A stretch of DNA of 64,000 nucleotides from Panopea generosa. Taxonomy: Eukaryota > Mollusca > Bivalvia > Adapedonta > Hiatellidae. The notes beneath the pieces are model-generated. The model did not search any database. It was not told the DNA's origin and saw nothing but the letters and a program-made list of their open reading frames with translations. Every line of letters starts with the position of its first letter. Position 1 is the stretch's first letter. The DNA lies in contig CM055895.1 of NCBI GenBank assembly GCA_029582155.1, positions 20,509,004 to 20,573,003 on the forward strand. The letters run 5' to 3'. This document shows positions 9,601 to 60,600 of the stretch, one piece after another. Position numbers and translations under genes: made by a program.

Positions 9601-12600
9601 TTTTGTAGATGTGTGGCAGTCAATAAGGACCCATGTGCTTCATCTCCATGTATGAATGGAGGAGTCTGCCGAAAACTAGAAGGATGTGATCATAGTGCTG
9701 GCTATGAGTGCATATGTCCTTATGCAACGGAGACACGTGGTAGATATTCTGGTGAAAGATGCGAAAACTATGGTGAGTCATTCAAAACATGTAACATATT
9801 TATTAGCTTGGTTCAGTCCATCAAAACATGTGACACGTTAAATAGCTTGGTTCAGTCCATCAAAACATTTGACTCACTTACTAGCTTGGTTCAGTCCATC
9901 AAAACATGTGACATACTTAATAGCTTAGTTCAGTCCATCAAAACATGTAACATACTTAATAGCTTAGTTCAGTCCATCAAAACATGTAACATACTTAATA
10001 GCTTGGTTCAGTCCATCAAAACATGTGACATACTTAATAGCTTAGTTCAGTCCATCAAAACACGTGACATACTTAATAGCTTAGTTCAGTCCATCAAAAC
10101 ATGTGACATACTTAATAGCTTGGTTCAGTCCATCAAAACACGTGACATACTTAATAGCTTAGTTCAGTCCATCAAAACACGTGACATACTTAATAGCTTG
10201 GTTCAGTCCATCAAAACATGTGACATACTTAATAGCTTGGTTCAGTCCATCAAAACATGTGACATACTTAATAGCTTGGTTCAGTCCATCAAAACATGTG
10301 ACATACTTAATAGCTTGGTTCAGTCCATCAAAACATGTGACATACTTAATAGCTTGGTTCAGTCCATCAAAACATGTGACATACTTAATAGCTTAGTTCA
10401 GTCCATCAAAACATGTGACATACTTAATAGGTTGGTTCAGTCCATCAAAACATGTAACATACTTAATAGCTTGGTTCAGTCCATCAAAACATGTGACATA
10501 CTTAATAGGTTGGTTCAGTCCATCAAAACATGTAACATACTTAATAGGTTGGTTCAGTCCATCAAAACATGTGACTTGTTAAATAACTTGGTTCAGTCCA
10601 TCAAAACATGTAACACACTTACTAGCTTAGTGGCATATTTGCTCTCATATATGGAGGAAATAAAGAAAATATATGTTTTATGCAGTATATATGTAAGCTT
10701 GGTTCAGTCCATCAGTACATGTGACATTCTTCAAGCTTGGTTTTAAGTACATGCTTAGCAATCCATTAAAACTTTTTAAGAAAATATATATTATAGCCTT
10801 AGGACAAAATGTGCAGATCCCTATTAAGAATAATTGCTATTTGTGGCATTTACAGTCGTTAACTGCCAGATATAACTGGTACTGGCTTATAATCTGGGCA
10901 CTTTGATCAACTATTTCAACTGAGATGAAATGTCATGGTATTGTTCATGTACATTTTAATAGTTCAGATGATTAGGTCATAATGAATTCATTCTAAGATT
11001 TTAATTCCTCCAGATTTGTTTAAAGATAGGGGGGTCGGTATGGGAATCCTTTAATTTTTTTATTTCTTTTTTTAATTATCAAAACAGATGTGTCATATTA
11101 GGCATGAAACAAAAGAAAATCATTGAATGGAAGTTCATCAGGAAGAGATGTTATAAATGTCTTTAGAAATAAAATAATTATTAAAATGGATAAAAGACAT
11201 CTCAGGATCTTTAATAAATAAAATCTGAATGGTTTGGAATGTTTATTCCACCAAAAATGACAAAATTTACATTAAAGTTGATATGGTAAACGTAAAATGA
11301 AATCCCCATTCTAAAAATAGACAGCACTTAAATACTGCTTGGCAGCCTTCACATTGCATTCAGATTCTTTTTAAGATGAAACAATTTTTAATGTGTGTAA
11401 CCTGTATCATATTGAAATCAGAATGAAATCACATGAGCATTTAATACATCACAAAATTTGTTGTAATTTTAAGCTGGAAATCTATTTTAGTCTAACCTAG
11501 ATGCATAGCCTTAGTAAGGAAATCCCTTTCTGATAAATTATTATGAAATGTTTAAATAGACATCTTTTTGACAACATGGGGTCATTGTGTATATGATATT
11601 ATTATAGGCCTGATGCATTGGGAATAAATATTTTTAGTTAATTTTAAAGCTTTGAAAAATCCTGATATATTCCCTTTAAAGATCAAAGGGTCTAGAATGA
11701 GGTGCCGTTTTGGAAATTATTCCAAAATACCAATGTCTATATTAAATTCTTTTTTTTTTTCACAAATTTTCGGTTTACACCTTTTGCAGGAAAATCGCAG
11801 TCTTTTAAAAACTATGTCACTTCCATTTTGTAAAGTTTAACTAAATAACTGACAGGAGATGACGTAACATCAAAACATTAAAAAGGAGATGACATGACGT
11901 TAGCAACGTCAATTGATGTCGCTTTAGAATTTCCCAAACTTTTAAGATAAATACAGATATAAGATCGATAGTAAATTTTATTTCAAAATATGTTGGGGCT
12001 GGGAAAAAAAAGGCAGCAGATGGGATGAAAATCCAGCAATTATGTTATTATGAGCTGAAAAAATAATGACTAGATATAGATAACTATCAATGATGTGGAC
12101 AGCCCTTATTTTCTAGGGGTATGAATCTGCACTTGTCGTAATCCATTCAATGTTATGAATGTTATTGTACAAAGGGAAATCTTACATGAAGATAAATCTA
12201 TTTTTCGAAAAATCAAAATATACAATTACATGTACAGTACCAAAGGGTAGGATAGATCACTACCCTACTACATGATATATATTTTCAGTTGAAAGCACTG
12301 ATAAAAACTGCATGGTGCCCACGGTCAGAAAGTCAGCAGGGGATGGCTTCTACGAATCTGGCTCTAAAAAATCTGCAAGTGAATGCTCTATGTGGTGCTC
12401 AATGGATCAAGATTGTCATACAGCAACATTCATAGAAGTAACCGGGTATGGACGCAAAAACTGCAGGAAGTATGGAGATAATAATGTGGACCTTATTCAA
12501 GATGCTCTGAGTATCACCTTCACAAAAATCTGTCAACCAGGTGTGTATGTTCCGTCCCTGTCAATATTATTGTTTGTGTCCCATCACCTTCACAAAGATC

Positions 12601-15600
12601 TGTCAACCAGGTGTGTATGTTCCGTCCCTGTCAATATTAATGTTTGTGTCCCATCACCTTCACAAAGACCTGTCAACCAGGTGTGTATGTTCCATCCCTG
12701 TCAATATTCATGTTCTTATCCTATCACCTTCACAAAGACCTGTCAACCAGGTGTGTATGTTCCATCCCTGTCAGTATTATTGTTTGTGTCCCATCATCTT
12801 CACAAAGATTTGTCAACCAGGTGTGTATGTTCTGTCCCTGTCAATATTATGTTTGTCCCATCACCTTCACAAAGATCTGTCAACCAGGTGTGTATGTTCC
12901 ATTCCTGTCAATGTTAATGTTTGTGTCCCATCACCTTCACAAAGGTCTGTTATCATGTACATGCTTGTTGCATGATTGTGTCCCATCACCTCACAAAGGT
13001 CTTTTGTCATGTACATGCTTGTTGTATGTTTGTGTCCTTTCACCTCACAAAGGTCTGTTGTCATGCACATGCTTGTTACATGTTTGTGTCCCTTCACCTC
13101 ACAAAGGTCTGTTGTCATGTACATGCTTGTTACATGTTTGTGTCCCTTAACCTCACAAAGGTCTGTTGTCAACAACATGTTTGTTACATGTTTGTGTCCC
13201 TTCACCTCACAAAGGTCTGTTGTCATGTACATGCTTGTTACATGTTTGTGTCCCTTCACCTCACAAATGTCTGTTGTCATGTACATGCTTGTTACATGTT
13301 TGTGTCCCTTCACCTCACAAAGGTCTGTTGTCATGTACATGCTTGTTACATGTGTGTGTCCCATTGCCTCACAGTTGTCTGTTATCATGTACATGCTTGT
13401 TGCATGTTCATGTCCCATTGCCTCACAGTTGTCTGTTATCATGTACATGCTTGTTGCATGTTCATGTCCCATTGCCTCACAGTTGTCTGTTATCATGTAC
13501 ATGCTTGTTGCATGTTCATGTCCCATTGCCTCACAGTTGTCTATTATCATGTACATGCATGTTCATGTCCCATTGCCTCAAAGAGGTCTGTTATCATGTA
13601 CATGCTTGTTGCATGTTCGTGTCCCATCACCTCACAGAGGTCTGTTATCATGTACATGTTTGTTGCATGTTCACAGAGGTCTGTTATCATGTACATGCTT
13701 GTTGCATGTTCATGTCCCATCACCTCACAGAGGTCTGTTATCATGTACATGCTCATTGCATGTTCATGTCCCATCACCTCACAAAGGTCTGTTATCATGT
13801 ACATGCTTGTTGCATGTTCATGTCCCATCACCTCACAAAGGTCTGTTATCATGTACATGCTTGTTGCATGTTCATGTCCCATCACCTCACAAAGATCTGT
13901 TATCATGTACATGCTTGTTGCATGTTCATGTCCCATCACCTCACAAAGGCCTGTTATCATGTACATGCTTGTTGCATGTTCATGTCCCATCACCTCACAA
14001 AGGCCTGTTATCATGTACATGCTTGTTGCATATTCGTGTCCCATCACCTCACAAAGGTCTGTTATCATGTACATGCTCATTGCATGTTCGTGTCCCATTG
14101 CCTCACAGAGGTCTGTTATCATGTACATGCTTATTGCATATTCGTGTCCCATCGCCTCACAAAGGTCTGTTATCATGTACATGCTCATTGTATGTTCGTG
14201 TCCCATTGCCTCACAAAGGCCTGTTATCATGTACATGCTTGTTGCATGTTCGTGTCCCATCGCCTCACAGAGGTCTGTTATCATGTACATGCTTGTTGCA
14301 TGATGATGTCCCATCACTTCACAAAGGTCTGTTATCATGCACAATGCTTGTTACATTAATTTAAAGATTAAGTTTCAAACATATATTTGTACCAATTTCA
14401 AACTTTTTCAAAACTATATCTTCCTCTGCCTGGTAGGACACTGTGTTCAATCTTTTGTAGATAAATTATTCAATGATGATGATAACATGGGGAATTATTT
14501 TTAGAGCGCAATTTTGTTTGCGTCATGCATCCGTAAAAAATCACATTTTTTACTTCTTCTTAAAACCCATTAACCCGATTGTAATGAAATTTTGTATGTA
14601 GCTTTGATACTTAAAGGTGAATAAACATGAATTTCATGATCTCCATCCCCATTGTCAGTCAAGTAATATAGTGATATTAAAAAAACTAGTATGACCATTG
14701 TGATGTTTTCTAACAGACACTCAACTGGAGAATTGTATGATTGGAGAAGGAGTCGAAGGATACTATGGTGGCATGAACTGCTACAGAACATTTGAAGGAC
14801 TGATGGCAGCTAACTGCAAACTTGAATGTCTTTGGGACCCCGATTGCACAGCTGTGGCACATTTGAATGAAGATGACCTATGTCTACTCTATAAGGATAT
14901 GTTCACCCTTGTGCCTCTCAAAAATGGAATATTTTGGAAGAAAGAATGTGCTAAAAGTAAGAAACAAAGTTCCAGCATGGTTGCGATGCTAAATTTGATT
15001 TTGAATTGAACTGCCTTACTAAATAGTGCAAGAAATGACATAGCATTATTTGAAATTCTCCTACCAGGATATGATGTCATGTCATGATAACAAAACAAAT
15101 GTAGTTAGAATGAATATCACATAGCTGTATTAATGACTTGATTTTTTTATATAAAGGCTAAGTGGTAGAATTTTAATAAAGAATGATTTTTTTAAATATT
15201 TATATCTGATTCCCTGGGAAAGATGCTTGAATGAAATATTTCTTTTCAGTTTTATTAATTTTAGTAAGCAGAGAAAGTTTGTTTCAATGAAAATGTAAAT
15301 GTTATTTCTGAAATTTCTAATTGTCGATACTGCAACAATGATATTGTTCATTGTTACTTTCTCACTCTGTAAAAGTATTTGTAACTATTATTTCAACTGT
15401 CATAAATATCTATCAAGATCAAATTATTTTAAAGATAATGATATTCAAATAAATAATTTTATCTACAAATTCAAAACAACTTACTGAAACAAATATTAAA
15501 ACTGGAGAGATAGCTATTGCATTGATGCTTTATATGTCTGTTACAGAAGAAGATTCTTGTAATCTGGATAACAAAGTTACTGGAGAGTATGGTGGTGAAG

Positions 15601-30600: not shown

Positions 30601-33600
30601 TTTCCAGAAACGGAATGTTACGCAACTGTAACATTGGATAAAACAGGGGGAAACGGCCATTATTCAAAGTTTTCTTTAGATTCAGAGGACATATGTTTAA
30701 ATGCATGCCTGCAAGACGACATGTGTTTTCATGTTGGTGTAACAGATATCCCAGACTGGGGCATTGACTGTATGCTGTATGGAGATGGCCAAGTAAACAT
30801 GATGGTTTCCCAGGGAAGCAGTGTTTATATGAAAACATGCCCAGGTACTTTATATCATATAATATTGTTTAACAATTTAATGCACCCAGCCAAAACATAA
30901 AGTAACATAATGTCAGAGCTTAAACATATTCTTGTTTTTTTTGTTGTGTGTATTTTTTCTATATTTGAACGCAAGAGTAATAAATAGCTTTGTTTGCTCA
31001 TTTTGAACATTTAATAATAAAAATATATATTTCAAAATGAAGTAAAATAGTTTTAGTGAACAACTGATGAAAAATTTATATTGGCATCAATACTGAAAGA
31101 GAAATAACAAAAAATGTTCATATCTTCCACCAAAGAGATGCCTTAAGGTTTCTTTATATTAAATTTGGTTTAAAGTGAGCATATCGGGGAAAATGCTATA
31201 AATGTCTTAAAAATAAAAAATAAATGAAATGGATAAAAAATGTCTCATTATCATAAATATTAAAATATTTCGGGTTATCAAATCCACCAAAACATGACAA
31301 AATTGATAATTCAATTGGAGAGGTCAACTTGAAATGAAATCCCCACCCTAAAAATAGACAGCACTTAAATACTGCTTGACAACCTTCACATTGTCATTTG
31401 GACTTTCTATTTTCAACATGTCAATCTGTACGACAGATCAAATTGAAATTAAAATGAAATTTTATATTATATTGGAAATCAATGTCAGTGAGTATGAATA
31501 GGCATAATATATTGGAAAATCTGTTTTCAGCCAATTAAAAAAAAAATAAATCCTGAAATATTCCCTTTAAAGTCACATTAGCTGCGATACAATATAAAAT
31601 GCACATTTCAAAATGACGATTAATTTATATTAATCAATGCATAATCAGTTCTCCATAATAAAAAATTATGTAACAAGTATTATTCCCAGATCAGTTTGAT
31701 AAACATTTACTTAGTTTTAGGTGTAAACCCAACGTTGATTTTTGTTCTTTATTCTATAGCAAATAATAAATGTTTGAAGGCTTGTCATTCATAGAGAGAC
31801 CAATTGAAAGAAGTGAAACCTACATTTTACTGTTTGTCAACCTCTGCACTATCAAAATATGATGAGAAAACTAGGGGTCATTTGTCATATAAGAGATGTT
31901 TTTTTTGCTTAGTGTGTACACTGTTGAAAAAGTGAAAGTAGACTTCCGAATTCATGTATTCATACCCCAATTTCCAAGCATCAATAGTTTTTTTCTAAAT
32001 TCACAATTCAAACATGACATTGCTATCAAAATGTTTAAGGGAATGGCCGAATTTAATGTTGAGAGAACTTGTGGCCAGACCCTTTTGCCTTAAATTGTAT
32101 TTGACTTATATGCATGATAAATAATGTAATATGTGTTTATTTGGCAATGAAATATGTAACTAGAATCAAAATGTATAAAATACATCAATAATGCCATTCA
32201 AATAAAAAAATGAGCATTAAAATAAGGAAAATGCATTTTTAAAGAAGAAGAAACAAGGATTATTTATAACCAATTATGCGATTACCCCATGGAAGCACTT
32301 CCTTTTTGCAATGGTGGTACTATGCCTTTAAAATGAACTTCAGGTATTCGGACTTCCACTGTTTTTTTTTTTAATTTTTGCTTACCTCTATAAACTGTTT
32401 GAAAAATAAAGCCTTCTGAGTTTAATTAGATATTAAATTGGTCAACAACTATTCATTTATGAACACTTCAAAAACTGTGATTTATACGTTATACTGCACA
32501 AATTTTGGTAGTCTGGGTTACTTTAATGTTTGATTTTTTCAAATTTCCAACAGATAAAGATGAACCTGCCTGTGAATACTCTACAATAATGAATAAAGAA
32601 ACATTTGGTGGCACTAATTTCTACAACACGTCGTATGTTGATGCCACAGGGGACTGTGAATGTGCCTGTTTGGAGGACGACCAATGTGCCGCTGTGACTT
32701 ATATACCTGGCCTACTATTCAACTCTTGTTACTTTTACAAAGAGGGCATGATTGAATATCAGCCATCAGAGAGCAGTACAGTATTCACCAAGCAGTGTAC
32801 AGGTATCAACTGTCAGTTGTCTCTAACTCCAGGCCAGACAAAAGTATTGCTATGGTTACTGTTTGATGTCTGACACTTCAAAATCTTCTGATTCCAAAAG
32901 TTATTTTGTCAAAAAATATATATTCTAAAAACACAGAATTAAACTAAATGGGACCTATACAATGAATTGATTTTTTTATGGACAACTATCATAGATAATT
33001 ATATATGTTATTCATTCCTTTATAACTAAACCAGATCTTTAAACAAATTAATTTGCAATTGATTGATTGATTGATTGTTTCTGGTTATTAATCAATTTAT
33101 AAATATATCGAGGGATAAAAATGTGCATGAAGCCAACAGTAATGAATATAATTTAAAACAGTATTTCCAAATAAACATTTATAGCAATATTGCCTATCAG
33201 TCATCACTGACTGTGGCTGGACAGGGATTCAAATGCGTGGCCCAGGAATTGATGTCCAGATGCGTAATTGACTGCTAACCAGGCAGATCATATTGATTTG
33301 AAGCCTCCTGAAATAATTCCATATTAAACAAATAAATTTATTGCATATTTTACATACTGAAATTCCTCCTGCACTAATGTGTCAGAAGAACTTGCAATAC
33401 AGTTGGAAAATTGCAGCTGCTTGCCATACAAGAAACTAGCAAAACAGTTGGAATATTGCAGCTGCTGGCAATACAAGAAACTAGCAATATGGTTGGAATA
33501 TTGCAGCTGCTGTCTATATAAGAAGCTAGGAATACAGTTGAAATATTTCAGCTGCTGGCTGTATAGAAACTAGCAATACAGTTGGAAAATTGCAGCTGCT

Positions 33601-36600
33601 GGCTATATAAGAAACTAGCAAAACAGTTGAAATATTGCAGCTGTATGCTATATAAGAAACTAGCAATACTGTTGGAAAATTGCAGCTGCTGGCTATGTAA
33701 GAAACTTAAACAGTTGAAATATTGCAGCTGCTGGCTATATAGGAAACTAGCAATACAGTTGGAATATTGCAGCTCCTGGCTATATAGGAAACTAGAATAC
33801 AGTTGGAATATTGCAGCTGCGAGCTATAAAGGAGACTAGCAATATAGTTGGAATATTGCAGCTGCTGGCTATATATAGAAGACTAGCAAAACAGTTGGAA
33901 TATTGCAGCTGCTGGCTTTATAAGAAACTAACAATACAGTTGGAATATTGCAGCTGCAAGCTATATAGGAGACTCACAATTTAGTTGGAATATTGAAGCT
34001 GCTGGCTATATATAGAAGTCTAGCAATACAGTTGGAATATTGCAGCTGCGAGCTATAAAGGAGACTCACAATATAGTTGGAATATTGCAGCTGCTGGCTA
34101 TATATAGAAGACTAGCAATACAGTTGGATTATTGCAGCTGCTGGCTTTATAAGAAACTAGCAATATAGTTGGAATATTGCAGCTGCGAGCTATAAAGGAG
34201 ACTAGCAATATAGTTGGAATATTGCAGCTGCTGGCTATATATAGAAGACTAGCAAAACAGTTGGAATATTGCAGCTGCAAGCAATATAGGAGACTAGCAA
34301 TACAGTTGGAATATTGCAGCTGCTGGCTATATATAGAAGACTAGCAATATGGTTGGAATATTGCAGCTGCTGGCTGTACAGGAAACTAGCAATACAATTG
34401 GAATATTGCAGCTGCTGGCTATATAGAAACTAGCAATACAGTTGGAAAATTGAAGCTGCTGGCTATATAGAAACTAGCATTACAGTTGGAAAATTGCAGC
34501 TGCTGGCTATATAAGAAACTAGCAAAACAGTTGAAATATTGCAGCTGTATGTTATATAAGAAACTAGCAATACTGTTGGAAAATTGCAGCTGCTGGCTTT
34601 GTAAGAAACTTAAACAGTTGAAATATTGCAGCTGCTGGCTATATAGGAAACTAGCAATACAGTTGGAATATTGCAGCTCCTAGCTATATAGAAAACTAGC
34701 AATACAGTTGGAATATTGCAGCTCCTTGCTATATAGGAAACTAGAATACAGTTGGAATATTGCAACTGCGAGCTATAAAGGAGACTCACAATATAGTTGG
34801 AGTATTGCAGCTGCTGGCTATATATAGAAGACTAGCAATACAGTTGGAATATTGCAGCTGCTGGCTTTATAAGAAACTAGCAATACAGTTGGAATATTGC
34901 AGCTGCAAGCTATATAGGAAACTAGCAATACAGTTGGAATATTGCAGCTATGAGCTATACAGGAGACTACCAATACAGTTGAGATATTGCAGCTGCTGGC
35001 TATACAAGAAACTAGCAATATGGTTGGAATATTGCAGCTGCTGTCTATATAAGAAGCTAGATATACAGTTGGAATATTGCAGCTTCTGGTTGTATAAGAA
35101 ACTAGCAATATGGTTGGAATATTGCAGCTGCTGTCTATATAAGAAGCAAGAAATACAGTTGGAATATTGCAGCTGCTGGCTGTATAGGAGACTAGTAATA
35201 CAGTTGGAATATTGCAACTGCGAGCTATATAGGAGACTAGCAATACAGTTGAAATATTGCAGCTACAAGCTATACAGGAGACTAGTAATACAATTGGAAT
35301 ATTGCAGCTGTATGCTATATAAGAAACTAGCAATACAGTTGGAATATTGCAGCTGTGAGCTATATAGGATACTAGCAATACAGTTGGAATATTGCAGCTG
35401 CTTGCTATATAGGAGACTAGCAATACATTTGAAATATTGCAGCTGCTGGCTATATATAAGGAACTAGCAATACAGTTGGAATATTGCAGCTGCTGGCTAT
35501 ATAAAAAAACTAGCAATACAGTTGGAATATTGCAGCTGCTATCTATATAGGAGACTAGCAATACAGTTGGAATATTGCAGCTGCGAGCTATATAGGAGAC
35601 TAGCAATACAGTTGCAATATTGCAGCTACGAGCTATACAGGAGACTAGCAATACAGTTGAAATATTGCAGCTGTTGGCTATGTATAAGGAACTAGCAATA
35701 CATTTGGAATATTGCAGCTGCTGGCTATATAGGAAACTAGCAATACAGTTGGAATATTGCAGCTGCTGGCTATATAAGAAACTAGCAATACAGTTGGAAT
35801 ATTGCAGCTGCTAGCTATATAGGAGACTAGCAATACAGTTGGAATATTGCAGTTGCTGGCTATATAGGAAACTAGCAATACAGTTGGACAATTGCAGCTG
35901 CAAACTATATAGGAAACTAGCAATACAGTTGGAATATTGCAGCTGCTGGCTATATAAGAAACTAGCAATACAGTTGGAATATTGCAGCTGCTAGCTATAT
36001 AGGAGACTAGCAATACAGTTGGAATATTGCAGCTGCTGGCTATATAGGAAACTAGCAATACAGTTGGAATATTGCAGCTGCTGGCTATATAAGAAACTAG
36101 CAATACAGTTGGAATATTGCAGCTGCTAGCTATATAGGAGACTAGCAATACAGTTGGACAGTTGCAGCTGCTGGCTATATAGGAAACTAGCAATACAGTT
36201 GGACAATTGCAGCTGCTGGCTATATAAGAAATTGATGATATTGAAGCTGCTGATTGTATCAGAAACTAGAAATATAGTTATTTTATGTTGATGGTATTGC
36301 AGCTAATGACTTCAGTCGCTTCCTGCAAGAAGTGACCGGTACAGGTGATGCTGTGATTGATGACTCTGTATCTAATGGCGGGAAGATGGCGTGCCTGACT
36401 TCATGCCAGAATGATGTTGAATGTGCTGCAGTATCTTATCATGGACAAGATGATGGTGAAAACCGCTGTGTCACCTACAGTAATTGGACTGCAGATGGAA
36501 GTGAAGTTCAGACATTGTATGTCGCAAAAGATTCAGGTAAGAACATTTATTTTGTATACATGATAATTTATTCATTTACTCTTACTGCAGTGTGTATAAT

Positions 36601-39600
36601 ATACAATTACTGTATATCTTGTGGTATGAATAGCTGTCTTTTCCTTTTTCAAATGATCAGTCTGTTATGTTGTTCACTAGATTCTCTTCAAATATCATTT
36701 CACATTCCTGCCTATGAGTGTTTAAGCAAACCATTGTGAGACCAATACTGTAAGATTTTTTGACTACTTTTTATGCTACACTTCTGCTGGGTCTCCCCAC
36801 ACATGCATACTTTTATTGATAAGGACAATCAACATGTGTTTTATGGTTACCTCTACTAGTATGGGTCATTTGTTACTATTTACATACCCTTTTTATAAAT
36901 CATAATTATTGTCTGATGTACAGGGTGAAATATCTTATAAAACTTGTAGAATAAACTAAAAAAAGTTTTTAAAACCTAACAAAGCCGATTATAATACCCC
37001 CGACAAACGAAGTTTTGAGGGGGTATATTGGAGTCACCCTGAGGTCGGTCTGTCGGTCTGTCGGTCTGTCCGTTGCAATTTTCCTTGTCCGGAGCATAAC
37101 TTGAAAAGTACCGGATGGAATTTCATCAAACGTCATACAATGGTAGAATATAATGAGAGGAAGTGCAGTGTACAAGAAACATAACTCTATTCTTGCTAAT
37201 TACAGAGTTATTGCCCTTTGATATTTTTTCTTGTCCAGAGCATAACTTGAAAAGTACTGGATGGAATTTCATCAAGCTTCATACAATGGTAGAATATAAT
37301 GAGAGGAAGTGCAGTGTACAAGAAACATAACTCTATTCTTGCTAATTACAGAGTTATTTCCCTTTGATATATTTCCCTTTGATATTTTTTCTTGTCCGGA
37401 GCATAACTTGAAAAGTACCGGATGGAATTTCATCAAGCTTCATACAATGGTAGAATATAATGAGAGGAAGTGCAGTGTACAGGAAACCTAACTCTATTCT
37501 TGCTAATTACAGAGTTATTGCCCTTTGATATATTTCCCTTGTCGGGAGCATTACTTTTAAAGTACTGGATGGAATTTCATCAAACTTCATGCAATGGTAG
37601 AATATAATGAGAGGAAGTGCAGTGTACAAGAAACATGACTTTATTCTTGCTAATTACAGAGTTATTGCCCTTTGATATATTTCCCTTGTCTGGAGCATTA
37701 CTTTTAAAGTACTGGATGGAATTTCATCAAGCTTCATACAATGGTAGAATATAATGAGAGGAAGTGCAGTGTACAAGAAACATAACTCTATTATTGCTAA
37801 TTACAGAGTTATTGCCCTTTGATTTTTTTTCTTGTCCGGAGCATAACTTGAAAAGTACTTGATGGAATTTCATCAAGCTTCATACAATGGTAGAATATAA
37901 TGAGAGGAAGTGCAGTGTACAAAGAACATAACTCTATTCTTGCTAATTACAGAGTTATAGAACCAAGTTGATGAATACATGGAGTTCGAGCAAAGCAGGT
38001 TTGATATTGTATTCCTAGTGCTGATGTTTGTTTCTTATCCATAAAATTGTTGTCCCTCAACATAACTCGAAAAAGTATAACATTTATTGATTGCCATGAA
38101 AGCTTGTACACTGCACAATGATTAAAAAGACAGTTTTTAATTTTAACAAAACCATAAAAAAATTAACAATACAAAAAACTCAATCCATAACATTCTCTTT
38201 TATTAATATTTTTTTTTTGTCTGGAGCATAACTTTAAAACTATTGGATATAATTTAATAAAACTTCATACAATGGTTAACCATTTTCTGTCATGGCAGCG
38301 TTCGGGGGTATTCATCACCTTCAATGATAGGTCTAGTTAAATCTACTCATATTTATACCCCCGACAAACGAAGTTTTGAGGGGGTATATTGGAGTCACCC
38401 TGTGGTCGGTCTGTCGGTCTGTTGGTCTGTCGGTCGGTTGGTCGGTCGGTCTGTCCGTTGCAATTTTCCTTGTCCGGAGCATCACTTGAAAAGTACTGGA
38501 TGGAATTTCATCAAACGTCATACAATGGTAGAATATAATGAGAGGAAGTGCAGTGTACAAGAAACATAACTCTATTCTTGCTAATTACAGAGTTATTGCC
38601 CTTTGATATTTTTTTGTTGTCCGGAGCATAACTTGAAAAGTACTGGATGGAATTTCATCAAGCTTCATACAATGGTAGAATATAATGAGAGGAAGTGCAG
38701 TGTACAGGAAACATAACTCTATTCTTGCTAATTACAGAGTTATTGCCCTTTGATATATTTCCCTTGTCGGGAGCATTACTTTTAAAGTACTGGATGGAAT
38801 TTCATCAAACTTCATACAATGGTAGAATATAATGATAGGAAGTGCAGTGTACAAGAAACATAACTCTATTCTTGCTAATTACAGAGTTATTGCCCTTTGA
38901 TATATTTCCCTTTTCTGGAGCATTACTTTTAAAGTACTTGATGGAATTTCATCAAACTTCATACAATGGTAGAATATAATGAGAGGAAGTGCAGTGTACA
39001 AGAAACATAACTCTATTCTTGCTAATTACAGAGTTATTGCCCTTTGATATTTTTTTGTTGTCCGGAGCATAACTTGAAAAGTACTGGATGGAATTTCATC
39101 AAACTTCATACAATGGTAGAATATAATGAGAGGAAGTGCAGTGTACAAGAAACATAACTCTATTATTGCTCATTACAGAGTTATTGCCCTTTGATAAAAA
39201 ATTTGTTTCTTGTTGGCAGTTCTTCTCAGAACTATGTTATAAAGTGCACTAAACCCACAAGTGCACCGTAGTAACTGTTCCATACTTAATAATAGAGTTC
39301 AAGTGTCAAAAATGTAATAAACATATGCTATTTGTTAACAAACAATGCATAAATGTTCAAAACTTTCAATTGCTCCAAAATCATAGCAGTGTCATTTGAA
39401 ATGAACTGTATACAAAGACTTTGCCAAATGTTTATAAATTGTCTTCTTCATAAAAAGCCATCAGTGATAACAGTTTAATAAAGTTCATGAAAGAACCAAG
39501 TTGATGAATACATGGAGTTCGAGCAAAGCAGGTTCGATATTGTATTCCTAGTGCTCTTGTTTGTTTCTTATCCATAAAATTGTTGTCCCTCAACATAACT

Positions 39601-42600
39601 CGAAAAAGTATAACATTTATTGATTGCCATGAAAGCTTGTACACTGCACAATAATTAAAAAGACAGTTTTTAATTTTAACAAAACCATAAAAAAAATTAA
39701 CAATACAAAAAACTCAGTCCATAACATTCTCTTTTATTAAGTTTTTTTTTTGTCTGGAGCATAACTTTAAAACTATTGGATATAATTTAATAAAACTTCA
39801 TACAATGGTAAACCATTTTCTGTCATGGCGGCGTTCGGGGGTATTCATCACCTTCAGTGATAGCTCTAGTTCATTCTGGTAATGAATGACCGCTTTACTG
39901 AAATTAGTTTGTCCAGTTTCAAAGTGGTCAAGGACTTGTATAGAAGGATAGGAAACTTGCATCTCCTGACTATATGTTGATGAAACAGCACACAAAGGAT
40001 TCATTATTTGCAAATTAATCATTCATAATTCACAGGTAACTGATTTCTTGTACATAAACTGTAAGTTGTATGTAATCTTAGATGTTTAAACATGTTTAGA
40101 TCACAGAAAATGCTCTTGAATTAAAGATATTGGGGTTTTAAGGAAAATTTATTGTAATTTGTCATTATTTTAGCTGCAGTATACACATTTTGTAATCACA
40201 TGTACTTAAAAAAATTTTAAACACAAATTTCTGGGAATGGTTTTGTTTTGATGACAATTTCATTCTGCAGTGTAAGAATTTTGATTTGTGTTCCTGAGAT
40301 GAATGGAAGTGAAGATAATTAAAACGAGATATTGCAAATTTTGCGTGAATACGCAAGCATTCACAAAATCTCGATCATTTCCTTTTCCTTTACTACATAA
40401 TTCTTTGAAGTGGTTAAGACAATGATCACATTCTGCCATTAATTAGGAAAGATGTGGCAATTAAATCTTTATTGACATATGGTATAAATTTATAAATTGG
40501 CACACCCATATTTTTATTTTTCAATAAAGTAACAGTTTTTACATATTACAATTAAACAAAATCATATTTTTTTTACATTAAATCGTAGTTTTCTCTATTC
40601 AATTGAAAAAATACCATTATTATATATCAACTATATATAGCTACACAAAACATATTTTGCAGCTAACAAAGATCTTCAAAACCAGTTCTTTAAAGGGCCT
40701 GTTTCTTCATTATGTATGCCATACCTGGCGTTACATGGGATAGATCGTCATGGCAGCTGTACATGTAATGTGAATGATCTTTATTGGTACGATATATGTG
40801 GTTTTGATTGAAGGGGCTTCATATATTCATGTATGTTCTTTACAATCTCGAATTAATGAAGCCCCTACAGTTAAAACTACATATCATTGTACCGATAAAG
40901 GTGCAATGTTTCAAACTAAAGTCCAAAGCAAGGATGAAATAGTACTGTAGAATTTCATCGAGTTCAGGGATCCATGATGTACATATCATGAATATTCATT
41001 TGTGTTTTTTTTTTTCCAGCATGTCTTGAACATGAAGAATGCAGAGTACTAGAACTGAATAATGTTTCTGGTGGGGACAAGGCTGACAAGCAGGTGGAGA
41101 CCCCAGATGCCCAGACATGTAAAGATGAATGCCTGACTAGTGGCATCTGTGACTTCTCCACATGGTCATCTGATGGCACGTGTTCTATGTATGCCAGTGA
41201 CAGTGTTGTCCTACAAAGTAATGGAACCAGCAAAAGTTGGAGCAAGGACTGTTCTCAAGGTAGATGCAATATATAAATCTCACAGATTTTGTTCCTTCAT
41301 AATGGGGTACCAGTAAATGGAATTATTCACCTCTTGAAAACATATCAGATTTTTTATGCTGATGAAGGCTCAGAAATTCGCCTTTCCAGTGAGTAAATAA
41401 CCCCTTCTCTTTCGAATAACAAACAACAACGAATAGTCTAACTGAATAGGTAAGTTAATTAAATGTCATTAAATATTTCATAAATTGACATTGAATGTTC
41501 ATTATCATCTAGCTCATATCTGGAAAAATGTCCACCATTTTGTTTTATAAGGTTTTAGGTCACGCATCCATAACTTTATAATTCAGGTTTAAACATTGGA
41601 ATTTTTTTGTGCTCTTTTTTTTTTGTTTCACATCAAATCCCAGTCCATCCCAGCCACAGTCTCTGTGCTGATTGATATACAACATTGCATTATCATTATC
41701 ATTCATTCCCACCACTAATTCAAGTGGTATAGTTATCAGTTACTTGCAGTGATGGATGTGCTTGAATAATGGTTAACTTCCAGGATCCAAAAAAAGAGTG
41801 ATCTGTTTGCCTTCGATAGCATCAGAATAAATAATTAAACAAACAAACTCAACATATTCAACTTTGTTGATAAGATACATGACTTGTTTCTTGCTTCAAC
41901 TTTCAGACTGTCGAACAATGGTTAAACAAGACCAATGTGGGTCTGACAACTTCTACATGTTAACCATTGCCGATTCCGTAGAAATGTGCTACATGACATG
42001 TTTTGCGGACCAGAGATGTGGCGCCACTTGTGCCAGTGTAATGGACAATTTAGAGGTCATATGTACAATGTATTCAATGCATAATACAGACGCCAACTCC
42101 ATGGGACACTCAACATCCTCCACAAAAAAACAATTCCTGATGACTAAATATTGTGAGAAAGGTAAGTGCCTTCCTGTTATCGAGAGTGTATCAGACAGGT
42201 AGGTTTGAGATGTGTATACAGACAGGTAGGTCAGAGATGTGTATACAGATGGGTAGGTTTGAGATGTGTATACAGACAGGTAGGTTGAAGATGTGTATAC
42301 AGACTGGTAGGTTAGAGATGTGTATACAGACAGGTAGGTTGGAGATGTGTATACAGAAAGGTAGGTTTGAGATGTGTATACAGACAGGTAGGTTTATGAT
42401 GTGTATACAGACAAGTCGGTTTAAGATGTGTATGCTGATGTGTAGGTTGGAGATGTATATACAGACAGGTAGGTTGGAGATGTGTATACAGACAAGTAGA
42501 TTGGAGATGTGTATACAGACAGGTAAGTTTGAGATGTGTATACAGACATGTAGGTTGGAGATGTGTATACAGACAAGTAGATTGGAGATGTGTATACAGA

Positions 42601-45600
42601 CAAGTAGATTGGAGATGTGTATACAGACAGGTAGGTTTGAGATGTGTATACAGACATGTAGGTTGGAGATGTGTATACAGACAAGTAGATTGGAGATGTG
42701 TATACAGACAAGTAGATTGGAGATGTGTATACAGACAGGTAGGTTTGAGATGTGTATACAGAAATGTAGGTTGGGGATGTGTATACAGACAAGTAGATTG
42801 GAGATGTGTATACAGACAAGTAGTTTGGAGATGTGTATACAGACAGGTAGGTTGGAGATGTGTTTACAGGCAAGTAGGTTGGAGATGTGTATACAGACAA
42901 GTAGATTGGAGATGTGTATACAGACATGTAGTTTGGAGATGTGTATACAGACAGGTAGGTTGGAGATGTGTTTACAGGCAATTGGGTTGGAGATGTGTAT
43001 ACAGACAGGTAGGTTGGAGATGTGTATACAGACATGTAGGTTGGAGATGTGTATACAGACAGGTAGGTTGAAGATGTGTATACAGACAAGTAGGTTGGAG
43101 ATGTATATACAGACAAGTAGGTTTGAGATGTGTATACAGACAAGTAGGTTGGAGATGTGTATACAGACAAGTAGGTTGGAGATGTGTTTATAGATAAATA
43201 GGCTTGAAATGCGTAAAGAGACAAGTAGTAGGTTGAAAGTGTGATTTTTTAATAAATCTGTTTTTGAAAAACCATACTTCCCTGTATAAATGCTTCCCCC
43301 CCCCCCCCCCCCCACCAAATGTCCTGCTCATTTTTGTCCAAAAAGTTGGGAAAAAAAATTAAATATAATATATTTTAAATGTTTTTGAAGTATTTGTGAA
43401 CAAGTTCTTACATGTTGCAGAGCATTATGGATTTTGTACCACCAAAAGTGAATTTGCTGAAATTTTCCATTAATTTATCAAATTATTTGGCATTTAAAGG
43501 TAATTATGGTAATGTATGTTAGTTAAGTTTTTATTTTTTATGTTAATAGAGGGCTGGCTGGCCCACTTTGACACTCAAACACCTATTAATGACCACCATT
43601 TGATTGAAATGAAAAAAATATATATAATGTTTTCATTTTTCAGATGAATATTTCTGTATCACACAAACATATGAGAACACGTTTGCCAGTCACTTGCATG
43701 AAGGTTACTTTTCCCTGGCTGTTTCCTCGGCAGCACAGTGTGTAGACAGGTGTCGCGATCAGCATGACTGTAACTGGGTTGCTGTAACAAATATTGAGTC
43801 ACTGTTCACCTTGTGTACACTATCCAAATCACCATCTACTGATCTCAAAGTTTCCCCTGGCAGTACCGTTTTTGAAAACATATGTCTCCCAGGTAAATAT
43901 CACTTCTGTTATTTTGACATTTCCAGAACACTTGAGCAAAATTACAAGCTAGACACCATACAAATACATATGAAGTTTAATTGGCACACTTGAACAAAAT
44001 TACAATGTAGTCACCATACATATACATATGAAGTTTGGCACATTTGAACAAAATTACAATGTAGTCACCATACATATACATATGAAGTTTGGCACATTTG
44101 AACAAAATTACAATGTAGTCACCATACATATACATATGAAGTTTGGCACATTTGAACAAAATTACAATGTAGTCACCATACATATACATATGAAGTTTGG
44201 CACACTTGAGTAAAATTACAAGTTAGTCGACAAATGTCTGACTATCAATCCAGGGTTCGTGAGTTTGAATCCCCGCTCGGCAACAGTCTCCATGATGATT
44301 AATATACAATGTTGTGTCTCATTATCATTCGTCTCATACCACTGATTCAAGTGAGAAAGTTATCAGTTACTTGTGGAGATTGGGTTTGCTCGAGTACTGG
44401 TTAACCTTCCAGGACCCAAGGAAACGGCGGTTAGGTTAACTGATCCTCTTTGAGCCATTGATGACATTAAAATGACGCTAAATATTCAATCAATCAATCA
44501 AAACCTTTGACAGTCGTTTAAGTACACATAACAGGATATCTTTCACCTTTCATTTTAACTTCGTATATAGCAGTGTAAAGATGAAACATTTGTTAGTATT
44601 ATATAAATCTGCACTTCCGTCAGGTGGGCATGGCTGTTTAATGGGTTCCTTGTACTTGATTTTTCAGAATCGACGCTGACATGTAGCATGTATCTGAAAT
44701 ACTCAAATCAGACAGGAGGAAGCAATCATTACATGTCTTTCTCATCAGCCAGTAGTAGTTTGTGCACGGATGCATGTATTGCAGATACCAAATGCCGGTA
44801 TATGGAACAATATATTGAGAATGGAGCTTATATATGTCATTTGTTTACATATGACAACAGTTATTTTGTTACTGAGCTAAGCAACCATTTAATCTTTGAA
44901 AAGACATGTATGCGAGGTAAGACTTTATTAAACTTTGAACTACATATACCAGGGGCATTTAATAAGTAATGTTTTTCATAACATAAATTATAAATAGTGA
45001 ACATTTCATTTTATTTGTGAAATCACAGATAGATTGATACATGTATCAGCAAAAATGTGATTTCCAGAAGATTTTTTATGATAGTCTTTGCCACATATAG
45101 TCTTAGTCATATATGGTTTGAGAGTCTTACTATATCTACTCGAATACTGAACTACATGAATGCGTGTTGCAAAAGTGGAATACGTTTATTACATATTTTT
45201 TCATATAATATACAATGTTATAAAAATAAAATTACAATTTCGAGCCCCATAGAAAGAATAACAGGAACAAAGATAAACGAAGGTCCTTTACGGCCAAAAG
45301 AAGTGTAAAAAAAATACAAGGTCTGTCATTCTTTAGGTTGCAGTTCTTAAAGATTCGTAAATATCGATCAGTACTCTGAATTTGTTAAATACGTTGTAGG
45401 CCACTTCTGTATCGTCTCTGAGGTCACAGGTTTGAGTCCAGCTCGGTCTAAAGAATATGTGAAAAAAAAATCAATTATTTGCAAAAGGATAATACTGTAT
45501 ATACCATATATTACCTACATGTGTTGAAAATGGTATTTAACCCCATTAAAAAAGTTTCCAACATTAAAGAAGCATCCAGCTAAACGTGGCCTCCCCAACA

Positions 45601-54600: not shown

Positions 54601-57600
54601 GGGCCACCCTTAATAAATTGTTTGTTTGCCACTTCAGACTTATACCATTAAGGGATTGGTAGGTAGGTAGGTTAAAATTTTTTTATTATTTGTAATCAAT
54701 CAAAGAATCTTTATAAGGACATGCTATGACCGAGAATACTTTAAATGAACACCAAAAAATTTGGGACACCCCAAAAAAAAAATCCTGCCCGGTGGGATTG
54801 TTTTGGGTCAGCCGGAAGCAGCAAACAAACAATTTTTTAATTTAGGCCCAGTAAATATAATCTGTAATGTTTTGAAAATTGTGTTAAACCCTGTCAGAAG
54901 TAGACTACTGGTATTTTCAGTTAATATGTTTTCTTCCAGGCTGATCATTTATGCAATCAAAAAACAAGCTCATGCAGTCATGTCATTTCTTATAAAGAAC
55001 ATTTAGGTTTACAGAGGGTAGAATATAGTTTAACAAAACAAAAAGAGAAATCAATGATACAAATATTTTAACAATTTTGTTTTTCTAGTTAATGAACTAC
55101 CTTGTGCACAGCACATGAACCAATACACAGCGGGAGACAACATCTACAAGATAACTGACGCCAAGACAGTAGTAAACTGTTCTACAGATTGTGCTGGTGA
55201 CGACCTCTGTAACCAATCAGTGTTCCATGATGATCAATGTAAGCTGTATAGAGAAGGAGAAGCTGTTCTGACAAAAGATCCGACATCGACCATGTCCACC
55301 AAGAAATGCAACTTTCGTACGTTTTGTTTAGTTTTAACTTATTTATTTTACTTCGATTGTGAGACAAGTTCTTACAACTTAGACAAATCATGCTCGAAGT
55401 CTCCTAGTTAGAACCAGTACTAAGCATATGCGGAAATGGTATCTTGCTCAAGGACACCACACATAGCCATGGTGGAGGATCGTACCCATGACCCTCCGAT
55501 CATGGGTTCGGTGCTCTACCTCTGGACCCAGCTAACGCTCATGTGTAAAGAATGAGCTTGTCAAGTTTTTGCCTTTATCTTCACCGAGTGCTGAATACAC
55601 ATTTTTTTCTCTCTAACAAATATAAATAGCATTTCATTTGAATTTTAAATGTTTATTCTGCGGTGTGACATTGTAACTCAATTGTTATGGTATGGTGTTT
55701 ATCATCGCTTTCAACAATTTTTCAGTCATATTGCAGCGGTGTCTACTTGAGACAGTATTCTGAGTGCTGTCACACTGGAGTATCATGCCGCAGACACATG
55801 GTATAATACCCCACCCAGTCACATTATACTGACACCGGGCCGACAAGATTTAGAACTCTCCTCTAAATGCTGAGTGTCAAACGATGAAGCTTCTAATATC
55901 ATTTTTAAAGTCTTTGGTATGACCCAGCCGAGGATCAAACCCACAACCTTCCGCATGCGAGGCAGACGCTGTATCGTAATTCATACATGTACCTTTATTG
56001 ATTAAGATTCACATATTTTTTCATCTACATAAAAAGGATTATGTTCTTTGAGATAACCGTAAACTAGATCATTCAAGACCCTATATTGCATAAATACTTA
56101 ATTTGTCCAAAGTTGGTATACTGGTATCCATGGATAACATAAATGTTGAGATACCATGTTTTGATGACATAAATGTTTTAACTGGCATAATTTTAAAATT
56201 ATATACAGTACAGAATATTACATCCCGCTTTATTCAGTTTCAATGGTAAATGGCACCAAGTCATACTTGGGTTCTTGTTGATGGCACCATGTTCACTGTC
56301 TACACACACATCTGTATTGTATTTCCCTAGGGTTTATGCCAACATGTTCACTGTCTACACGCATGTCTGTATTGTATTTCCCCAGGGTTTATGCCAACAT
56401 GTTCACTGTCTACACGCATGTCTGTATTGTATTTCCCCAGAGTTTATGCCAACATGTTCTCTGTCTACACGCATGTCTGTATTGTATTTCCCCAGGGTTT
56501 ATGCCACCATGTTCACTGTCTACAGGCATGTCTGTATTGTATTTCCCCAGAGTTTATGACAACATGTTCACTGTCTACACGCATGTCTGTATTGTATTTC
56601 TCCAGAGTTTATGCCAACATGTTCACTGTCTACACGCATGTCTGTATTGTATTTCCCCAGGGTTTATGCCAACATGTTCACTGTCTACACGCATGTCTGT
56701 ATTGTATTTCCCCAGAGTTTATGCCAACATGTTCACTGTCTACACGCATGTCTGTATTGTATTTCCCCAGGGTTTATGCCACCATGTTCACTGTCTACAC
56801 ATGTGTCTATATTGTATTCACCAGGGTTTATGCCACCATGTTCACTGTCTACACACACGTCTGTATTGTATTTCCCCAGGGTTTATAACAACATGTTCAC
56901 TGTCTACACGCATGTCTGTATTGTATTTCCCCAGGGTTTATGCCAACATGTTCACTGTCTACACGCATGTCTGTATTGTATTTCCCAGGGTTAATGGTAC
57001 CATGTTCATGGTGTACATACATGTCTGTATTGCATTGCCCCAGGGTTGATGCTCCCGTGTTCACTGTCTACACACGTCTGTATTGTATTTCCCCAGGGTT
57101 TATGGTACCATGTTCACGGTCTACACACATGTCTGTATTGTATTTCCCCAGGGTTTGTGGTACCATCTTCACTGTCTACACACATGTCTGTATTGTATTT
57201 CCCCAGGGTTTGTGGTACCATCTTCACTTCTACACACATGTCTGTATTGTATTTCCCCAGAGTTGATGCTCCCGTGTTCACTGTCTACATACATGTCTGT
57301 ATTGCATTGCCTCAGGGTTGATGCTCCCATGTTCACTGTCTACACACATGTCTGTATTGTATTTCCCCAGGGCTTGTGGTACCATGTTCACTGTCTACAT
57401 ACATGTCTGTATTGTATTTCCCCAGGGTTTGTGGTACCATGTTCACTGTCTACATACATGTCTGTATTGTATTTCCCCAGGGTTTGTGGTACCATGTTCA
57501 CTGTCTACACACATGTCTGTATTGTATTGCCCCAGGGTTGATGCTCCCATGTTCGCTGTCTGCACACATGTCTGTATTGTATTTCCCCAGAGTTTATGCC

Positions 57601-60600
57601 ACCATGTTCACTGTCTACACACATGTCTGTATTGTATTTCCCCAGGGTTGATGCTCCCATGTTTACTGTCTACACACATGTCTGTATTGTATTTCCCCAG
57701 GGTTTATGGTACCATGTTCACGGTCTATACAATGTCTGTATCATATTTTCCCCAGGGTTAATGGCATGTTCATTCTCTACACAAATGTCTGTATCATATT
57801 TTCCCCAGGGTTAATGGCATGCCACCGTGTTCACTCTCTACACACATGTCTGTATTGTATTTCCCCAGGGTTTGTGGTACCGTGTTCACTGTCTACACAC
57901 ATGTCAGTATTGTATTTCCCCAGGGTTTGTGGTACCATCTTCACTTCTACACACATGTCTGTATTGTATTTCCCCAGGGTTTATGCCAATATCTTCACTT
58001 CTACACACATGTCTGTATTGTATTTCCCCAGAGTTTATGCCACCATGTTCACTGTCTACACACATGTCTGTATTGTATTTCCCCAGGGTTTATGCCAACA
58101 TGTTCACTGTCTACACACACATCTGTATTGTATTTCCCCAGGGTTTATGCTACCATGTTCACTGTCTACACACATGTCTGTATTGTATTTCCCCAGGGTT
58201 AATTGCAATCTGTTTTCTGTCTACACACATTTCTGTATTGTATTTCCCCAGGGTTTGTGGCAATGTGTTCTCTGTCTGCACACATGTCTGTATTGTATTT
58301 CCCCAGGGTTTATTGCAATGTGTTCTCTGTCTGCACACATGTCTGTATTGTATTTCCCCAGGGTTTATGTTACCATATTCACTGTCTACACACATGTCGG
58401 TATTGTATTTCCCCAGAGTTTATGCCACCATGTTCACTGTCTACACACATGTCAGTATTGTATTTCTCCAGGGTTTATGCCACCATGTTCACTGTCTACA
58501 CACATCTCTGTATTGTATTTCCCCAGGGTTTATGCCACCATGTTCCTATTCTACACACATGTCAGTATTGTATTTCCCCAGGGTTTATGCCACCATGTTC
58601 ACTGTCTACACACGTGTCTGTATTGTATTTCTCAGGGTTTATGCCACCATGTTCACTGTCTAGACACGTGTCTGTATTATATTTCCCCAGGGTTTATGCA
58701 AACATGTTCACTGTCTACACACGTGTCTGTATTGTATTTCCCCAGGGTTTATGCAACCATGTTCATTGTCTACACACGTGTCTGTATTGTATTTCCCCAG
58801 GGTTTATTGCAATGTGTTCTCTGTCTGCACACATGTCTGTATTGTATTTCCCCAGGGTTTATTGCAATGTGTTCTCTGTCTGCACACATGTCTGTATTGT
58901 ATTTCCCCAGGGTTTATGTTACCATGTTCACTGTCTACACACATGTCTGTATTGTATTTCCCCAGGGTTTATGCCACCATGTTCACTGTCTACACACATG
59001 TCAGTATTGTATTTCTCCAGGGTTTATGCCACCATGTTCACTGTCTACACACATCTCTGTATTGTATTTCCCCAGGGTTTATGCCACCATGTTCCTATTC
59101 TACACACATGTCAGTATTGTATTTCCCCAGGGTTTATGCCACCATGTTCACTGTCTACACACGTGTCTGTATTGTATTTCTCAGGGTTTATGCCACCATG
59201 TTCACTGTCTTGACACGTGTCTGTATTATATTTCCCCAGGGTTTATGCAAACATGTTCACTGTCTACACACGTGTCTGTATTGTATTTCCCCAGGGTTTA
59301 TGCAACCATGTTCATTGTCTACACACGTGTCTGTATTGTATTTCCCCAGTGTTTATGCCACCATGTTTACTGTCTACAGGCATGTCTATATTGTATTTCC
59401 CAAGGGTTTATGCAACCATGTTCACTGTCTACACACATGTCTGTATTGTATTTCCCCAGGGTTTATGGCAATGTGTTCTCTGTCTACACACATTTCTGTA
59501 TTGTATTTCCCCAGGGTTAATGGCACCATGTTCACTGTGTAAACACATGTACATGTGTGGAGGTGAGTGGCCTGATAATATAATACAGACAGCATCAGAG
59601 GAAGATTGTGGTGAGAGTTGCCTGTCCAATGATAAATGCATGGCTTCCAGCTTCAACTTTGAATCATCTGAATGTAGATTATATAGTCATCAACCAGTGG
59701 GCGTGGCAGATTCTGGTTGTGTTTTATACATGAAACACTGTGGAAGAAGTGAGTTTTCCTTTTTTGTTATACTTATTTAATTATCGCTTTATGGCAATAT
59801 TTAAAATTGTGTGACATACTTTCTATGGTCAAGTTATATTTTCTCTACTACTCGATGTTCACATTGGACAAATTATGATACATAATATCATTTAGCACAA
59901 TAATACAAAATGAACATATACAAATGATGAGCATTATAATGAATATTCACAGGAATAGCCATCATTATTGTATTTCAATGGGGGCCTTTTATCTGGAATT
60001 GCAGATATATTTCATCTAATGCAAGTTGTGACCATATTTCAGCTGCTTCCTGTACACTAAGTAGCAAGGTTGGAGTGTATGGTGGACAGGACTATATTAT
60101 GACCATGACACTGAGGTCTCCCACAGAATGCTCTCTCAACTGTCTCAACATGGAAGAGTGTCATTACGCCTCCTACACCCTCATCAATGGTTTACATGTG
60201 TGTCTCTTCTACTTTAGGAACCAATACACGGAGATGCCTGTTGGGTATGGGATAACTTACTTTAAAACATGTGAAGGTTTGTGGCTTTTCTCAGTTATCA
60301 ATACACAGTGGAAATTTGAGACATTTATCTTTAAGATGTCATGTTGCATTCGCAGCATCATCATTAATTTGTACGTTAAGTTATCACAGTACAAACAGTC
60401 ATGAATAGAAAACAGATAGACAAATTGTGTTTTCATTAATGATGCTCCAGTGGGCAGATGAATGATGTTTGAGTGGGTAGACAGAGGTTTAGGTTAATTA
60501 AATCCTTTAAAATAGTTCTAAGTAATTTTGCTTGCAGGTTCCTTACTTGAAGTTTAATGATGAAAGTATAACTAAACTTGTCTAAGTAACTTTTGTCTTT

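Follow-up and report, generated by a model that had tools for sequence, protein, structure and literature searches.

The minisatellite of the 6-16 (IFI6) gene is reportedly built from a tandem unit that contains donor sites of its host gene, and these sites are said, in the title of that work, to be used in transcripts. In the IR1 (W) repeats of Epstein-Barr virus (EBV), whole exons are repeated and splice sites lie inside every unit. The introns from tandem arrays of Zhuo et al. 2007 are said to reflect tandem duplication across a splice site, whereby splice signals are multiplied. Internal tandem repeats at exon–intron boundaries of human genes in segmental duplications can alter splicing, according to PMC2812944. 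The array considered here lies in a window of 64,000 nucleotides (nt) of the Panopea generosa genome (C2:20509004-20573003, contig CM055895.1), the whole stretch of DNA that was analysed and whose numbering is used throughout. It runs into an exon for a PAN domain, labelled PAN23 in the first-pass annotation, and multiplies the 3' splice site (acceptor) of that exon together with the exon start. It is best explained, with a probability of roughly two in three, as a neutral or nearly neutral minisatellite that was born across an intron/exon boundary, and it has the look of an accident that has been tolerated, not of a device for protein diversity.

Anatomy and reading frames of the acceptor array

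Tandem Repeats Finder (TRF) places the array at 56277-59550 with a period of 55, a score of 4799, 89% matches and 59.6 copies, an organisation that agrees with the definition of a minisatellite as a head-to-tail unit of roughly 10-100 bp. Cyclic alignment resolves it into 59 units, every one with an acceptor at its end, followed by a partial copy of 36 nt that is the start of the exon itself, so that the last, partial unit of the array is also the first 36 nt of exon 59515-59748. The exon start (59515-59550) is identical to the unit at 32 of 36 positions, a match that scores 52, where none of 500 shuffles exceeds 20. The claim of the first-pass annotation that about 59 tandem copies of a 3' splice site and the start of a PAN exon are present is thereby borne out, as is its placing of the first cysteine codon of the exon within the unit. 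In all 59 units the acceptor AG is intact; it forms part of a CAG in 57, and 43 units carry the tract ATTGTATTTCCCCAG exactly. In 58 of the 59 units a branch-point-like yTnAy motif precedes the AG by 15 nt or more (as exact TTCAC in 43), and from column 20 onwards the acceptor AG is the only AG in 51 of the 59.

Two blocks of nine units differ at only 4 of 494 positions, which indicates that the array grew recently and, within this one assembly, suits the variation in copy number among individuals that is typical of minisatellites. A genome search with the 55-nt unit gave 33 matches, all inside 56277-59550, a result that does not prove the unit to be rare since the search skips very common words. 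Elsewhere in the window the unit finds only matches of 10-15 nt, with E values of 0.31 or worse. The RNA structure of the last array units is unremarkable, at -46.7 against -41.7 (standard deviation 4.0) for 100 mononucleotide shuffles, or about 1.3 standard deviations. The repeated unit contains no donor-like site above 4 bits, the best reaching 3.98, and a site of 5.48 bits at 59548 belongs to the exon part.

With the preceding exon, in phase 1, as the reference, 20 of the 59 acceptors are in frame with the true one included, that is 19 of the 58 upstream copies. The expectation that every third acceptor would be in frame is therefore roughly right, but only the true acceptor and that at 59350 are also free of stops, and the other 57 of the 58 upstream acceptors shift the frame and/or meet a stop. 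The array had been described as lacking stops on the forward strand, whereas 17 are present in its span (6, 5 and 6 by frame), two of them in the exon part. It is only the consensus unit that is stop-free, a property shared by 331 of 8649 (3.8%) of the 55-mers elsewhere in the window. Variants that create stops are not depleted, at 5 of 55 distinct variants against 4.5 expected from a matched spectrum. With 17 forward stops and this spectrum, coding selection on the array was rejected, and there is no sign of the array being kept open. The N-terminal extensions of variable length that had been envisaged are largely unsupported, given the fate of the 57 acceptors, and such variability is mostly excluded by the sequence of the array itself. 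The positions of these elements are collected in Table 1.

Table 1. Positions of the acceptor array, its host exon and splice sites, and the other junction-carrying arrays of the locus
Feature	Position	Strand	Details
Minisatellite (acceptor array)	56277..59550	+	55-nt unit, 59.6 copies; unit = 35 nt of exon start + 20 nt of intron end (TCTGTATTGTATTTCCCCAG); from TRF and unit alignment
Nine-unit block, first copy of recent duplication	58307..58800	+	4 differences in 494 nt
Nine-unit block, second copy	58856..59349	+	Duplicate of 58307..58800
Three-unit stretch, only upstream acceptor with open in-frame extension (exon start 59350)	59350..59514	+	+165 nt, 55 codons
True 3' splice site	59495..59514	+	Identical to unit consensus; third lowest score (0.39 bits) among 24 PAN acceptors
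PAN exon (PAN23)	59515..59748	+	Phase 1/1, open
Internal donor-like site GAG|GTGAGT after 59562	59560..59568	+	9.49 bits (real donor 6.31); 48 nt past the true acceptor, in frame
Preceding PAN exon	55089..55316	+	Donor TTC|GTACGT weakest of 24, leave-one-out -1.18
Donor array	12513..14356	+	70-nt unit, made up of the 3'-terminal 28 nt of exon 12289-12540 and donor CAG|GTGTGT; 5 further donors
Acceptor array	33389..36302	+	45-nt unit with ATATTGCAG|CT; degenerate copy 36238-36279, unmatched stretch, then TATTGCAG|CT = acceptor of exon 36303-36536
Donor array outside window	L017:7143-8302		Donor 101155 in window coordinates (L017:7155); 32-nt unit ACATGTTTGAATG|GTATGATG...
Donor array outside window	L021:3267-4455		Donor 137239 in window coordinates (L021:3239); 26-nt unit

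The host exon passes the Pfam PAN_1 model with 27.1 bits against a cut-off of 21.4. Splice sites were scored with a weight matrix derived from the gene's own 24 exons, and because few sites enter the matrix the ranking of strengths is rough. A different true acceptor further downstream had also been considered in the first-pass annotation, and none was found that yields an intact domain. The exon contains 15 AGs, three of which outscore the true site, at 59589 (1.28, out of frame), 59599 (3.93) and 59698 (5.11), the last two in frame; all three were rejected since each cuts into the domain, with loss of the first cysteine and more. An AG at 55737, in the intron 5' of the array (score 11.06), was likewise set aside, a stop being read 13 codons in.

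Within the exon, use of the donor-like GAG|GTGAGT at 59562 would yield a 48-nt in-frame exon. This site is not unique of its kind, as internal sites outscore the exon's own donor in 4 of the 24 exons; 21 of the 24 real donors score above 5 bits in leave-one-out scoring. The exon also has two extra cysteines near its start (CSLCKHMYMC, 59515-59570) that are absent at that place in the other 19 aligned exons. A search for a paralogue of exon 59515-59748, with 16 candidates scored, returned none but the exon itself at E values of 0.001 or below.

Other junction-carrying arrays at the locus

The window contains 25 PAN-domain exons, all of which fit phase 1/1; in 20 cases that phase had served as a filter in the search, and the other five came from a profile and had the phase fitted afterwards. 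A further 39 PAN profile hits, all on the same strand, lie downstream; the final one ends near +137 kb in window coordinates, and no hits occur in the 60 kb upstream or in the next 50 kb beyond the run. The resulting 64 hits on one strand, from 6386 to about +137 kb (about 131 kb), presumably belong to one gene. In a Pfam scan of 11 window exons, three pass the PAN_1 cut-off, seven match a PAN model below its cut-off and one matches none, and six cysteine columns are invariant across 24 of the window exons, exon 36303 standing outside the alignment. Tandem arrays of at least 250 bp account for 32% of the 204 kb examined, and splice-like motifs are present in arrays on both strands. One family of 147-nt repeats, dispersed and perhaps of a bivalve-like kind, occurs in three of the arrays (3476-4130, 37079-37958 and 38463-39196).

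A systematic scan of 122 junctions found four with at least two extra junction-spanning copies in the adjacent intron, compared to none in shuffled sequences and none in reverse complements. For the flank, junction calling was automatic, and of the 39 hits 3 were left out for not having both ends. The donor array behind exon 12289-12540 had been put forward as a mirror case, and rightly so, with a donor multiplied there and an acceptor here; only one of its further donors, at 12750 (+210 nt), is in frame with no stop. The two donor arrays outside the window have, by exact motif, 23 further donors at 101155 (7 in frame, one of these open) and 20 at 137239 (9 in frame, none open).

The acceptor array at 36303 is the weakest of the junction-array cases and is not among the four that pass the scan. 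The acceptor of exon 36303-36536, GGTATTGCAG|CT, has TATTGCAG|CT in common with the 45-nt unit. The exon itself is only PAN-like, with 20.1 bits under PAN_1 (below the cut-off of 21.4) and without the usual first cysteine. Twenty-six of the 58 TTGCAGCT acceptors are in frame, and the true one is the only open one. The 45-nt unit has the length of 15 codons. The five acceptors closest on the upstream side (36033-36213) are all in frame, with a stop at codon 7. A 27-nt array at 42182-43228, 20 nt after a donor, is full of donor-like CAG|GTAGGT sites, of which the sense strand has 32 and the opposite strand 0. It was not counted as a multiplication of donor 42161, for its units are donor-like but lack homology to the flank of the exon (p 0.93).

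Origin of the array and choice among its acceptors

The array probably originated when slippage during replication, or an unequal exchange, spanned the intron/exon boundary; the duplicated segment would have included by chance a branch-point-like TTCAC, a pyrimidine tract and the AG, along with the exon's first 35 bases. Expansion would then have extended the array into the intron and left the real exon as its fixed last unit, and the pre-mRNA would present 59 near-identical acceptors. It is proposed that the exon-proximal acceptor, 59515, is normally used because it alone gives the 234-nt exon defined by the donor at 59748. The upstream copies would act as weak decoys, and the frame-shifted or stop-containing mRNA from 57 of the 58 is expected to be directed to nonsense-mediated decay. 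The array probably serves no function. This neutral reading is supported by the continuity of array and exon, the confinement of matches to the array, its recent growth, the ordinary occurrence of minisatellites at this locus, the undepleted stops and the splice-like motifs on both strands. It is further supported by the single protein-compatible acceptor among the 58 extra ones and by the 36303 array, where the true site alone is open.

Several observations weigh against this reading. With the own-gene matrix, as many as 49 of the 58 upstream decoys equal or outscore the true site, and the intron 5' of the array contains four AGs that score above 4, the highest being that at 55737; the strength of the sites consequently does not explain an accurate choice of the last acceptor. 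Moreover, the two halves of the unit differ in their variation, with 20 parsimony events in the 20 intron columns of the 59-unit tree against 74 in the 35 exon-like columns. The coldest window of 20 columns coincides exactly with the intron part, and the lower variation of the acceptor half has a permutation p of 0.010 for a fixed window and 0.015 when stratified by base. For the 11 columns of the acceptor core p is 0.069 and for a floating-window scan 0.165; the floating-window p is lower in 4 of 9 other arrays, and below 0.05 in three of those. The reduction is thus a modest one, a hint only, and selection on the acceptors is not established. Finally, junction-carrying arrays may be more common in the gene than uniform seeding predicts.

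If the array acceptors were often used, and mostly unproductively, the copy number could set the level of full-length mRNA or of exon skipping. The strong decoys described above would suit such a role, as would the weakness of the upstream donor and of the true acceptor and the frame shifts and stops that follow from 57 of the 58 decoys. Skipping would also keep the frame, given that all 25 window exons fit phase 1/1 (most having been found through the phase filter and the rest fitted). Costly decoys should nevertheless favour mutations that destroy them, yet no unit has lost its AG, and this kind of tuning appears doubtful. A contribution to protein diversity, either by N-terminal extensions of the PAN unit or by an array-derived exon that ends at the internal donor after 59562, is highly improbable. 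Acceptor 59350 is in frame and open, adding 55 codons, and the internal donor outscores the real one and keeps the frame; against this, only one of the 58 acceptors behaves in this manner, the array holds its 17 forward stops with stop-making variants undepleted, and internal donors better than the real one are found in 4 of 24 exons.

Arrays might instead start preferentially at splice junctions through some process linked to transcription or splicing, an idea that is compatible with the other readings and that draws on the four multiplied junctions among 122, plus 36303 by its degenerate match. Under a null in which each array began as one uniformly placed unit, the 27 arrays with a period up to 100 should give 0.49 junction units (P for four or more 0.0016), whereas for all 35 arrays 1.58 are expected (P 0.076). 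The window was chosen on account of two such arrays, and hence the flank alone, which was not selected for arrays, is the fairer test. Here two are observed against 0.21 expected for the 18 arrays with a period of at most 100 (P 0.019 for two or more) but against 0.68 for all 22 (P 0.15), and where any overlap is counted the expectation becomes 0.54 or 1.09 (P 0.10 or 0.30). A more general pattern, in which arrays hug exon edges, was withdrawn: in the window, with the array at 21474 and exon 36303 taken into the count, 9 of 13 arrays lie within 80 nt of an edge (2.84 expected), but in the held-out flank only 6 of 21 do so against 4.94 (p 0.33), a 22nd flank array (137267) being left out as its intron end is uncertain. 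With a single locus to draw on, non-random seeding at junctions is suggestive at most, and a preferential process is unlikely. The broadest form of this idea is a rather unlikely one, namely that splice junctions are preferred birthplaces of arrays in the genome, that the five arrays at this PAN locus amplify a donor or acceptor with its exon edge, that introns would grow by their own splice signals and that the number of decoys would be a fast-mutating splicing dial. It is also very unlikely that the copy number is partly an artefact of assembly. Near-identical nine-unit blocks are the type of repeat that assemblers miscount, but the assembly is of chromosome scale (39 contigs for 1.47 Gb, with a host contig of 100 Mb), the units include many distinct variants, and the finding depends on the arrangement rather than on an exact count.

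Comparison with known splice-site arrays

The array is a natural setting in which to test how the spliceosome picks one 3' splice site out of dozens of near-identical ones that lie 55 nt apart with matching branch-point-like sites. If the last acceptor is used faithfully then exon definition or the distance to the donor must decide, and not site strength; if it is not, the length of the minisatellite becomes a mutable control of splicing. The presence of several junction-carrying arrays at one locus makes the question testable in one RNA data set. It is this recurrence that is the part worth following, and it merits a proper survey.

Among the matches listed from the open-access literature, by titles and the starts of abstracts, there is no cellular minisatellite that multiplies acceptors, and the accessible parts of PMC4039745, PMC3039753 and PMC12783039 describe no such array. 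The W repeats of EBV, a subject of PMC5834210, resemble the 55-nt array in that splice sites lie in each tandem unit. They differ in that the 55-nt unit contains an acceptor only (the best donor-like site being that of 3.98 bits) rather than both an acceptor and a donor. Unlike the cases of Zhuo et al. 2007, an existing intron has been lengthened here and a new intron is not evident. The repeats of PMC2812944 likewise lie at exon–intron boundaries, but consist of units of 30 bp on average, present 4 times, in recent paralogues and with RNA support, compared to an array of 3.3 kb that is known here as DNA sequence only. The nearest likeness is to 6-16/IFI6, as the 55-nt unit also includes a genuine host-gene splice site, with the acceptor AG in 59 of 59 units and the exon start as the last unit. 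The difference is that acceptors are multiplied here and donors there, and that the 59 copies of 55 nt are documented at the level of sequence alone. The array is thus the acceptor version of a known kind of minisatellite, with a real and tidy anatomy.

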